Shown piece by piece: positions 18,187-20,582 of a stretch of 64,000 nt of DNA. The notes below the pieces were generated by a model. It searched no databases. It had not been told where the DNA came from and saw only the letters and a list, made by a program, of their open reading frames with translations. This DNA comes from Natronorubrum daqingense (GTDB taxonomy: Archaea; Halobacteriota; Halobacteria; Halobacteriales; Natrialbaceae), in the NCBI RefSeq assembly GCF_001971705.1, contig NZ_CP019327.1, forward strand, positions 434,001 through 498,000. The letters are read 5' to 3'. The translations under genes and the position numbers were made by a program. Each line of letters begins with the position of its first letter. Within the stretch, counting starts at the first letter, position 1.

Positions 18187-18522
18187 ATGACGGAGTACAC
18201 GATCGAATTCGTCGGAACGGGTGAGACGATTACCTGTTCGGACACGGAGACGATCCTCAGTCGCTGTCTCGAGGAGGGTATCGCGCAGGAATACTCCTGT
18301 CGCGTCGGCATGTGTCTGGCCTGTTCGGCAGAGATCCTCGAGGGCGAGGTCGTCCAACCCGCCGCGCGGGGCTTTACCGAGGCGGAAGCCGAGAACTACG
18401 CGCTCACCTGTATGGCCCGGCCACAGTCGGACCTGAAACTCGAGCGCGGAGTGTACCCGCCGAGTATCGACGGCGACCTCGAGAGCGAGGGGACCGACGG
18501 CGCTGCTGTCGCGGACGACTGA
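18187..18522 (+). CDS. [2Fe-2S] ferredoxin
   Basis: 111 residues from the ATG at 18187 (MTEYTIEFVGTGETITC). The plant-type cluster-binding cysteines are seen as YSCRVGMCLACSAEI (Cx4Cx2C) with the fourth Cys in ALTCMARPQSDL. The acidic C-terminal tail is haloarchaeal; the large N-terminal insertion of the major haloarchaeal ferredoxin is absent, so this is a secondary ferredoxin. Divergent to the geranylgeranyl reductase with about 210 bases between starts. It may supply electrons to that enzyme or another reductase. Confidence 0.92.
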   Translation: MTEYTIEFVGTGETITCSDTETILSRCLEEGIAQEYSCRVGMCLACSAEILEGEVVQPAARGFTEAEAENYALTCMARPQSDLKLERGVYPPSIDGDLESEGTDGAAVADD

Positions 18523-18714
18523 TGCAGTGACGAGTCGGTCTCGTCGTCTCTATCGTGTCCCGGCAGGCGGATTCTCTCTTTGTTCGACACAGCTGGCGGT
18601 ACGCTGACTCGAAGACTATCAGTAGTCTGGTGGCTCCATTTCTTTATTTAGAGAAACACTAGAAACCGGAGTGAGCGATTCAGGAACTACAGATGCGAAT
18701 TGAACGACTTCGAC

Positions 18715-19701
18715 TTATTCGCTCGGTAGTTCCCGGAGCATTTTTCGCCCGGGAGCGATCAGTTCATCGAGATACCCGGCTACTGTCTCTTTCGCATCTG
18801 CCGGGTGCAACTCTCCGGATTCGAGCGCCGCCGCAAGGTCATCGTAGCAGTCGTAGGTCTGATTTCCACCGTACTTCTCGGGTCGTCGTACGATCACCGA
18901 CTCGAATCGCGAAAACACGTAGTACTCGAACAATTGGAGAACGGGGTTCTCGCGATCACCCTCGGGATCACGGGTCGGGGGACAAAACGCCGTCTCGATC
19001 TTTCGCTCGAGGTCATCAGTGGAATCCTCCATCGAGATCGTCGTCCCCTCACTCGAGGACATTTTCCCCTCGCCGGTTTCGAGATCAGCGAGTATGGGTG
19101 TGTGCAAACACGGTCGCACCTCGTATCCCAACTCTGGCAATTTCTCTCGAGCAAGCATATGCACCTTCCGTTGATCGGTTCCACCGACAGCGAGGTCGAT
19201 GCCGAGGAACTCGAAATCGAGGACCTGCATCAACGGGTACACGGTATGGCTCACCGTTGCGGTGTCGCCGCTTTGGAGTTCGGCGACCGCTCGCTTGGCA
19301 CGGTTGAGCGTCGTCGAGACGCCGAGTTCGTGTAGATCGAGTGAGTAGTACGCTTCGAGTTGGAAGTCGGACCCGTAGACGTATTCGGTCTTCTCCTCGT
19401 CGAGGCCGTACGCGGCGAACTGTGCCCTCATTCGCTCCGCTGTCTCGTGGATCTCCTCGAAACTACCCTTCCCGTTGAGATGTGCGTGAACGTCCGCCAG
19501 TAGGACGACGACGACGTCCATCCTTGCTTCCTGCGCGTCAATGAGTTTGTTCGCCGTCAGAAGGTGGCCAAGGTGGAGGACACCGGACGGTTCGTAGCCG
19601 ACGTAGACTCGTTTGTCTGCCGGCTCAGCGGCGAGTTCACGCACCTCCTGGTCGGTAACGACTTCCTCAGTGTTCCGGATGAGTAACTCGTAGGTATTCA
19701 T
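18715..19701 (-). CDS. tyrS: Tyrosyl-tRNA synthetase
   Basis: 328 residues, a class I synthetase. The HIGH-type motif is EPSGVLHLGHLLTANK and the KMSKS-type motif is GEGKMSSSEGTTIS. The pocket YPLMQVLDFEFLGIDLAVGG retains the Tyr, Gln and Asp that hold the tyrosine hydroxyl in archaeal TyrRS, so tyrosine specificity is supported. Length is normal for archaeal TyrRS, which charges tRNA-Tyr. It overlaps the upstream winged-helix regulator gene by ATGA, so translation is coupled. The pair is flanked by AT-rich sequence and is lower in GC than its neighbours. Whether it is the only TyrRS cannot be told here. Confidence 0.92.
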   Translation of the reverse strand: MNTYELLIRNTEEVVTDQEVRELAAEPADKRVYVGYEPSGVLHLGHLLTANKLIDAQEARMDVVVVLLADVHAHLNGKGSFEEIHETAERMRAQFAAYGLDEEKTEYVYGSDFQLEAYYSLDLHELGVSTTLNRAKRAVAELQSGDTATVSHTVYPLMQVLDFEFLGIDLAVGGTDQRKVHMLAREKLPELGYEVRPCLHTPILADLETGEGKMSSSEGTTISMEDSTDDLERKIETAFCPPTRDPEGDRENPVLQLFEYYVFSRFESVIVRRPEKYGGNQTYDCYDDLAAALESGELHPADAKETVAGYLDELIAPGRKMLRELPSE

Positions 19702-20021
19702 ACGGATTGTAGCTCTACTGACTCGGAAATTTTCATATCATCCAATGCGTCGATCACAGTTGCCAGCTCATCGTTTAGTGTCTCGACGAATTGGCGGGCG
19801 TGGTCTGTCGTCGTTGCCCCCGCTGAACACGGTTCAATGAGTCCTTCTTCCTCGAGAACGCGAAGTGAGTATCGAACCTTGTGATGCGGGAGATCAGTCC
19901 GGGTAGATAATTCGACGATGCCAATCGGTTCGGCCTGCCAGACGAGGACAAAGACCGCTAAATGCCGATTGAGAACATCGACCTCTTTCTCGAGACGGTC
20001 AATGATGGTTTGCGCGACCAT
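19698..20021 (-). CDS. Winged-helix regulator coupled to tyrS
   Basis: 107 residues. LNRHLAVFVLVWQAEPIGIV (helix 1), ELSTRTDLPHHKVRYSLRVL (helix-turn-helix) and EEEGLIEPCSAGATTTD (wing) form a MarR/ArsR-type winged helix; a C-terminal helix (FVETLNDELATVIDALDDM) would dimerise. Its TGA overlaps the tyrS ATG. GC over 19741-19920 is about 54% by hand count, well below adjacent genes. Its promoter is strong and leaderless (TTTATATA at -29). Such a small regulator coupled to a synthetase may sense tyrosine or a related compound; inference only. Confidence 0.75.
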   Translation of the reverse strand: MVAQTIIDRLEKEVDVLNRHLAVFVLVWQAEPIGIVELSTRTDLPHHKVRYSLRVLEEEGLIEPCSAGATTTDHARQFVETLNDELATVIDALDDMKISESVELQSV

Positions 20022-20046
20022 ACCACCTCAGCCTATTCACCGAGAA

Positions 20047-20054
20047 TATATAAA
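20047..20054 (-). promoter_or_regulatory. TATA box of the regulator-tyrS operon
   Basis: TTTATATA on the minus strand, centred 29 bases before the ATG at 20021. It is the clearest TATA box in the window. The 180 bases beyond are AT-rich (20041-20100 is about 28% GC by hand count). Confidence 0.65.
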
Positions 20055-20297
20055 TTAGTTTAAGGTATGATATGACGCCTGTAATACTAAATGCTATTCT
20101 ACCACATGGTGTTCGAATCAATAGGTGCACACCCTGTATTGAACGTGGATTTCACGCTCAACTCTTGATAACGAAATCGTACTATCGACTACTGCTAGCG
20201 TAGCCACTGCAAGTCAGTGCACATCTAATCGCTACATCGGCGATCAGCGCGTAACTCGTTTCAGGTGTTCTGCTCGACGAGAAGTCGACCGGTATCG

Positions 20298-20582
20298 TTA
20301 CTCGATCGTCAACTCACCGTCACCGCCGTCACCGTTTCCGTTCTCGTCCCACTCGAGTTCGAACTCGATACTGAGTTCGCCGGGGCCGTCGGTGGGGCCT
20401 TCGCGTTCGGCTTTCACTTCGAACGTCGGCTGAGCGGGCGGATCCATCGTCACGGATTGGTCGCCGGCGCTGAGCGTGAGTTCGTCGCCGTTCTCGAGTG
20501 AGTCGGCGACCGTTCGGAGGTACGACGCGATATCTTCTCGGCGCTGGCGACTCTCGGATTCGAAGAGTACTTCCTCTGGCAT
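20298..20582 (-). CDS. Amphi-Trp domain protein
   Basis: 94 residues. The amphi-Trp domain is seen as EVLFESESRQRREDIASYLR, then TVADSLENGDELTLSAGDQS and ELSIEFELEWDENG. In this family the domain is small and often occurs alone or fused to DNA-repair or sensing domains; its role is unknown. The C-terminus is glycine/aspartate-rich. It is downstream of ftsZ1 on the same strand with a 171-base gap, so separate transcription is likely. Confidence 0.8.
   Translation of the reverse strand: MPEEVLFESESRQRREDIASYLRTVADSLENGDELTLSAGDQSVTMDPPAQPTFEVKAEREGPTDGPGELSIEFELEWDENGNGDGGDGELTIE

Follow-up and report, generated by a model that had tools for sequence, protein, structure and literature searches.

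Encoded on the minus strand of the window, by which we mean the whole stretch of 64,000 nucleotides analysed here, are an auxiliary tyrosyl-tRNA synthetase (tyrS2, product TyrRS2) and a small winged-helix (wHTH) regulator, whose genes overlap by four nucleotides (ATGA, 19698–19701) and lie within a 1575-bp element bounded by inverted terminal repeats (Table 1). TyrRS2 reaches 398.8 bits against the NCBIfam model NF006330 (cut-off 220) and thereby classifies as an archaeal-type TyrRS. The regulator matched several wHTH models of Pfam weakly and none of them above the model's own cut-off; with 16.4 bits against MarR_2 it stays short of the Pfam cut-off of 27 for MarR membership, and a search for a defence-system link among ten proteins returned only a weak Csa3 match of this regulator. 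GC content is 62.5 % for the window, 57.5 % for tyrS2 and 51.5 % for the regulator gene, while the minima over 100 bp (34 %) and 50 bp (24 %) both begin at 20043. A preliminary description of this DNA had pointed out the ATGA overlap, which the ORF coordinates bear out, and an AT-rich island, which is confirmed in that the element exceeds all 833 window steps of its own length (1575 bp) in AT content. Its hand-counted regulator GC content of about 54 % has to be corrected to the measured value, and its estimate of about 28 % for the upstream region captured the strong dip, not the exact figure. The terminal inverted repeats go beyond what that description had seen.

Table 1. Features of the tyrS2 element and its target site, with positions in the window; G numbers denote genomes.
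Feature	Position	Strand	Evidence and remarks
Left target-site copy CTAT	18616-18619	.	agrees with the right copy at 3 of 4 bases
Whole element, inverted terminal repeats, 1575 bp	18620-20194	.	ends CAGTAGTC / GACTACTG, pairing as inverted repeats with a score of 42 (p about 0.01, shuffles)
Terminal region downstream of tyrS2, degenerate, inner limit approximate	18620-18697	+	common to G352, G387 and G408
tyrS2, auxiliary tyrosyl-tRNA synthetase, 328 aa	18715-19701	-	ORF, profile match, tree, dS
Winged-helix regulator, 107 aa, 4-nt overlap with tyrS2	19698-20021	-	ORF, profile and relatives searches
TATA-like box TTTATATATTC, putative promoter element	20044-20054	-	by eye, in conserved region
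Candidate regulator site CCATGTGGTAGAATAGCAT, last 18 bases identical in 8/8 cassettes	20091-20109	-	alignment, genome search
Terminal region upstream of the regulator	20133-20194	-	5 mismatches to the family pattern; G352 homology begins at 20133
Right target-site copy CTAG	20195-20198	.	3 of 4 bases match the left copy

The window genome (G000) encodes another TyrRS at G000:C1:1767660-1768631 that is 76 % identical to the window copy and clusters with the sole TyrRS encoded by other members of the family, which makes the window copy the extra one. Two TyrRS matches (E up to 1e-40) were found in eight of 391 Halobacteria genomes, six of which hold one copy 87–100 % identical to the window TyrRS, and close relatives of the regulator (76–100 %) occurred among the 391 only in these same six. 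Eight of the 125 family genomes contain the regulator, and tyrS2 adjoins it in every case, with the four-base overlap in six and a five-base gap before the ATG in two; such constant adjacency is not a matter of chance. The eight carriers are G000, G338 (Natrialba sp. SSL1), G131, G118, G387, G408, G404 and G295. They include Natronolimnohabitans sp. A-GB9 as well as plasmid 2 of Natronococcus occultus SP4 and a plasmid of Natrinema sp. SYSU A 869, two of the eight copies thus being located on named plasmids, and in the genus of the window only one of ten genomes has the pair. Its gene neighbourhoods are unlike from carrier to carrier. A CRISPR array lies alongside the A-GB9 copy, and in G118 (L036) we noted by eye shikimate-kinase-like and chorismate-mutase-like ORFs together with a VapBC-like pair downstream of tyrS2, an aromatic theme that may be coincidental. 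Among viral contigs two stretches fitted a pattern, neither of which encodes a relative.

Residues of TyrRS2 are numbered here as in the M. jannaschii enzyme, in part by what we take to be their positions in that protein, and on this alignment TyrRS2 retains the residues that contact tyrosine and ATP as well as the main ones that contact tRNA, as Q155, Q173, Y151, the KMSSS motif, R132, R174, K175, H283 and D286 are all unaltered in the eight copies. The same holds for Y32 and D158, which contact the tyrosine hydroxyl and whose numbering, together with that of F108 and L162, follows the relevant part of PMC9499402. Nineteen positions scattered across the protein distinguish the TyrRS2 clade as a whole from canonical TyrRS, and clade-wide changes beside pocket residues comprise I159 to F (seven copies) or L (one copy), Y161F, D163G and Y72H. 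The copy of G404 also has a change within the EPSG motif. Among the 42 of 43 tRNA genes of the window genome that could be typed, there was a single tRNA-Tyr and not one stop anticodon. The idea that TyrRS2 serves a suppressor tRNA or an additional tRNA-Tyr was accordingly dismissed, and TyrRS2 very likely shares the single tRNA-Tyr with the housekeeping enzyme (TyrRS1).

The alternative that survives best, although we consider it rather unlikely, is that in this genome TyrRS2 has ceased to act in translation, or does so only as a secondary function, and is either decaying or acting on another substrate. The window copy carries G60R, an additional Val63 and P264S, all three at positions that do not vary among the other 57 TyrRS, and is perhaps, as far as its sequence tells, in early decay; raw counts of replacement to silent changes are 11/19 on the G000 branch against 1/9 on that of G338, and S39F in G404 and four such changes in G118 fit the same explanation. 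It is opposed by the retained catalytic and tRNA-binding residues and by dN values of 0.013–0.075 over TyrRS2 pairs, which lie far under dS and thus indicate purifying selection on tyrS2.

The ends of the element are of unequal quality, since the one downstream of tyrS2 differs from the family pattern described below by more than nine mismatches, and the window copy as a whole, ends included, looks decayed. At the same insertion site the sister species G352, whose flanks are 95 % and 92 % identical to those of the window, has the same ends, between which two ORFs, one of them an EamA-like gene, take the place of the tyrS2-regulator pair. The outer stretches are mutually inverted at G000, G352, G387 and G408, with p of about 0.003–0.01 each (300 shuffles). 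Both ends surround tyrS2 in only three of the eight carriers (G000, G387 and G408), and for these three elements three of four bases match at the target site in each, a perfect 4-bp duplication being absent. We found no ends within nine mismatches in G338, G131, G118 and G404 and no inward pair in G295, where the only ends are two that face the same way, about 3 kb upstream. In G338 the pair lies inside a different inverted repeat, GTTGAAACCCTC ... TGCTGAATACAG (L034 2881-2924 and 4490-4538), maybe a second family of mobile elements.

Shared ends with exchanged cargo could also arise if they marked a resident hot spot or recombination target, into which homologous exchange or a deletion-coupled insertion, rather than transposition of a cassette, had placed the pair. 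In favour of such an origin are the unlike cargo of G000 and G352 at one site, the five carriers in which paired ends are missing, and the frequent deletion-coupled insertions of Haloquadratum in the pertinent section of PMC3119063, where related strains are also described as having dissimilar sequences at the same position. We nevertheless regard it as unlikely, because G387 and G408 hold the same cargo within the same ends at other sites and 4-bp duplications occur across the element family.

This family was defined by a 31-base pattern, drawn from the ends at the four sites above, that is present in 87 of the 125 genomes, while the reversed pattern gave no match, and many inward-facing end pairs are visible among the matches listed. 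Fifty rows with both ends, one of them a repeat (L308 duplicates L258 from the same plasmid), represent 49 distinct elements of 275–3056 bp; 27 of these (L232–L258) were chosen because a +/- pair was visible among the matches listed, so that they form a sample selected for pairing, and further elements comprise ten more, seven from ten plasmid records and two short ones (L301 and L302). A perfect 4-bp duplication flanks 31 of the 50 rows, corresponding to 30 of the 49 distinct elements, against a mean of 2.7 and a maximum of 10 after shuffling. TA occupies the middle of 28 of the 31 perfect duplications, which hence mostly read NTAN, and for lengths of 2, 3 and 5–8 no more than one perfect duplication per length was seen among the first 31 elements. 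Two end types, TTGGTAATACG and ATAGTAGCACG, can be distinguished. When the interiors were grouped, for which plasmid elements, L301 and L302 were set aside, 37 of them fell into 31 groups devoid of mutual tblastx similarity. On these grounds the terminal-repeat family is very probably real.

Its cargo ranges from a response regulator, a Na/Ca exchanger, HTH_10 regulators, Usp, an acetyltransferase and an ACT protein to a Cys/Met PLP enzyme with a MOSC protein, an F420 oxidoreductase with an HxlR regulator, and an Asp/Glu racemase. The other element of the window genome (L297, G000:C1:1600344-1601338) contains PIN-domain and MazE-like genes and is flanked by the duplication TTTC. Plasmid elements in Halolamina and Halobacterium take the end family outside Natrialbaceae or into archaeon DL31 (family not given). 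Transposase models did not match any of 40 cargo ORFs, and none of the elements examined that have these ends was autonomous. As 17 of these 40 ORFs match no Pfam family, an unrecognised mover could be among them. Short elements with near-perfect ends lie near a transposase gene (594–643 aa) on plasmids of Natronobeatus (L304 4004-4284) and Natrinema thermotolerans (L305 4004-4433). This transposase was considered as the mover and rejected, for the ends do not enclose it.

Upstream of the regulator the last 105 bases align gap-free in all eight carriers and contain 55 invariant positions. Within them an 18-bp block, CATGTGGTAGAATAGCAT, is identical in all eight cassettes, for which the chance is about 3e-11 at the invariance observed for fourfold sites (32/123). 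The 19-base form of the block occurs once exactly in the genome and once more at three mismatches, the reversed control giving one match. We take it for a putative regulator site, to which the regulator might bind in controlling its own operon, and judging from this conservation autoregulation of the tyrS2 operon is probable. Only weak dyads were detected in the upstream region, and a T box was not found up to E = 1 in 18500–20400.

A core wHTH paralogue of the regulator (L068 1507-1812; L010–L033) has matches in 390 of 391 Halobacteria and adjoins purA in the two genomes inspected. Its promoter is strongly conserved and contains GTTAACA, possibly a self-regulatory site of the paralogue. An operator common to cassette and paralogue was ruled out, since the 18-bp block is absent from 25 stretches upstream of the latter (mean best match 8.16, against 8.62 for shuffled blocks). 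It is quite unlikely that the cassette regulator is a mere passenger that acts elsewhere, as the universal paralogue does, and exerts no control over tyrS2. Solo plasmid relatives, of which none of the six inspected stands beside a synthetase, would suit a passenger; the constant adjacency, the overlap in six of eight cases and an upstream block conserved in the cassettes only would not.

From the TyrRS set one of 51 planned canonical rows (L112) was dropped for want of an ORF. In the tree the eight TyrRS2 form one clade with a support of 98/100 and a long stem, whose junction with the canonical tree lacks resolution. Synonymous distances of TyrRS2 and canonical tyrS are 0.13 and 0.57 for G000–G338, 0.23 and 0.55 for G000–G131, and 0.17 and 0.63 for G338–G131. 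Among these three genera TyrRS2 is hence 2.4 to 4.3 times less diverged than the housekeeping gene and also lies below the canonical distance of 0.38 between G000 and its sister species G352, from which we conclude that it was transferred among the three. Over all 15 carrier pairs having both genes (the dS table holds no canonical tyrS for G404 and G408) TyrRS2 dS is lower in four, three of them clearly, and equal or higher in 11, which establishes transfer for some carriers only; in the others TyrRS2 may be older. Vertical descent of an old family-wide paralogue that was mostly lost, with neighbourhoods changed by ordinary rearrangement, would agree with the single origin of the clade and with TyrRS2 divergence at least equal to that of canonical tyrS within Natrinema (G118, G387) and in the said 11 pairs, yet it is highly improbable in view of the low distances across three genera, for which it is already disfavoured, the occurrence of the pair in one of ten genomes of the genus, and the plasmid copies.

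We are highly confident that the second TyrRS is mobile. The preliminary description had suspected a transferred cassette in which a second TyrRS comes with a regulator of its own, and this idea is supported by the low dS among G000, G338 and G131 (not in 11 of 15 pairs) and by the unlike sites. The lines of inquiry it proposed point the same way, as a second tyrS was found in the genome, regulator-tyrS pairs recur in other genomes in unlike surroundings, and the TyrRS2 copies form a single clade distinct from canonical TyrRS. The ancestral situation it had opposed to transfer, a sole TyrRS nested with its species and always paired with this regulator in Halobacteria, does not apply.

Taken together, the second TyrRS, its constant pairing, the transfer among three carriers, the conserved promoter region, the shared ends and the other cargo in G352 lead us to read the locus, with a probability of roughly 0.6, as a cassette of about 1.58 kb that is mobile but non-autonomous and carries a two-gene, self-regulated auxiliary TyrRS operon working like tyrZ of Bacillus. 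A transposase would move the cassette ends in trans, and TyrRS2 would charge the single tRNA-Tyr whenever a tyrosine-like molecule, be it a tyrosine analogue, D-tyrosine or an inhibitor, impairs the housekeeping enzyme, a molecule that the changed surroundings of the pocket might allow TyrRS2 to tolerate. We put forward such a protective role tentatively. With similar reserve, the family as a whole could represent an integron-free traffic of gene cassettes in haloarchaea, in which one kind of ends is moved in trans, unrelated genes are packaged (regulators, an antiporter, amino-acid enzymes, a toxin-antitoxin-like pair and a second TyrRS) and one cargo can replace another between resident ends that stay where they are. 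A core translation enzyme moved with its own regulator between archaeal genera as a cassette would point to an as yet unnamed tyrosine-mimicking stress in hypersaline habitats, and through elements of this family haloarchaea could have a concrete way to acquire single genes. Defined ends and 4-bp duplications make the hunt for the transposase direct.

Mobile insertion cassettes, of which there is a case in Aeromonas, are non-autonomous and combine IS-like ends with passenger genes. The tyrS2 element resembles them in its inverted ends (in three of eight tyrS2 carriers), the target duplication of its family and passenger genes devoid of a transposase, and fits their definition except for the missing partner element; it differs in being haloarchaeal, in the roughly 30 groups of cargo that share one kind of ends and in the mostly NTAN 4-bp duplication. 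Like the MITEs and deletion-coupled insertions of Haloquadratum, the present elements are transposase-free, with inverted ends, target duplications and unlike sequences at the same positions, but they reach 3 kb and hold complete genes, whereas in the account given in PMC3119063 four of five MITE families are non-coding and shorter than 500 bp and the fifth, of about 520 bp, has one ORF.

The preliminary description had called an own regulator rare for a synthetase, which needs a qualifier, as tyrZ of Bacillus subtilis has a MarR-type regulator, its product being stricter for L- over D-tyrosine (Williams-Wagner 2015, as cited in PMC9437257). Common to both systems are a second TyrRS next to a housekeeping one and a winged-helix regulator, while the present TyrRS2 is archaeal-type, its small wHTH regulator stays below the MarR cut-offs and its genes form a mobile cassette; since a T box was not found, we describe the pair as working like tyrZ without filing it as a tyrZ-type member. 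Transferable inhibitor-insensitive synthetases, namely the plasmid IleRS (mupirocin) and TrpRS (indolmycin) treated in a section of PMC9437257, are likewise spare enzymes, with horizontal acquisition as a further likeness to IleRS, but unlike them TyrRS2 has its own regulator and no known inhibitor. It is also an archaeal synthetase duplicate as are LeuRS2 of Halobacteria and LeuRS-I of Sulfolobaceae, for which the corresponding part of PMC9437257 gives little or no charging activity, whereas TyrRS2 retains the known catalytic residues. An open-library search returned no account of the present TyrRS2 or of the cargo elements, which does not prove their absence in print.

The remaining two genomes with two TyrRS hold extra copies of different kinds. 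That of G349 (L190 988-2283) is TyrRS-like, lacks a recognisable KMSKS motif and, by eye, runs into a dual-specificity-phosphatase-like C-terminal part, while that of G371 (L186 1432-2448) is an extra haloarchaeal TyrRS, 56 % identical to that of the window, which has MSSSK and adjoins ORFs of unassigned function. Incongruent trees of haloarchaeal TyrRS are mentioned in a passage of PMC3102087. In families f3, f8 and f9 most of the genomes listed have only a distant type of TyrRS, 41–44 % identical in the three inspected.
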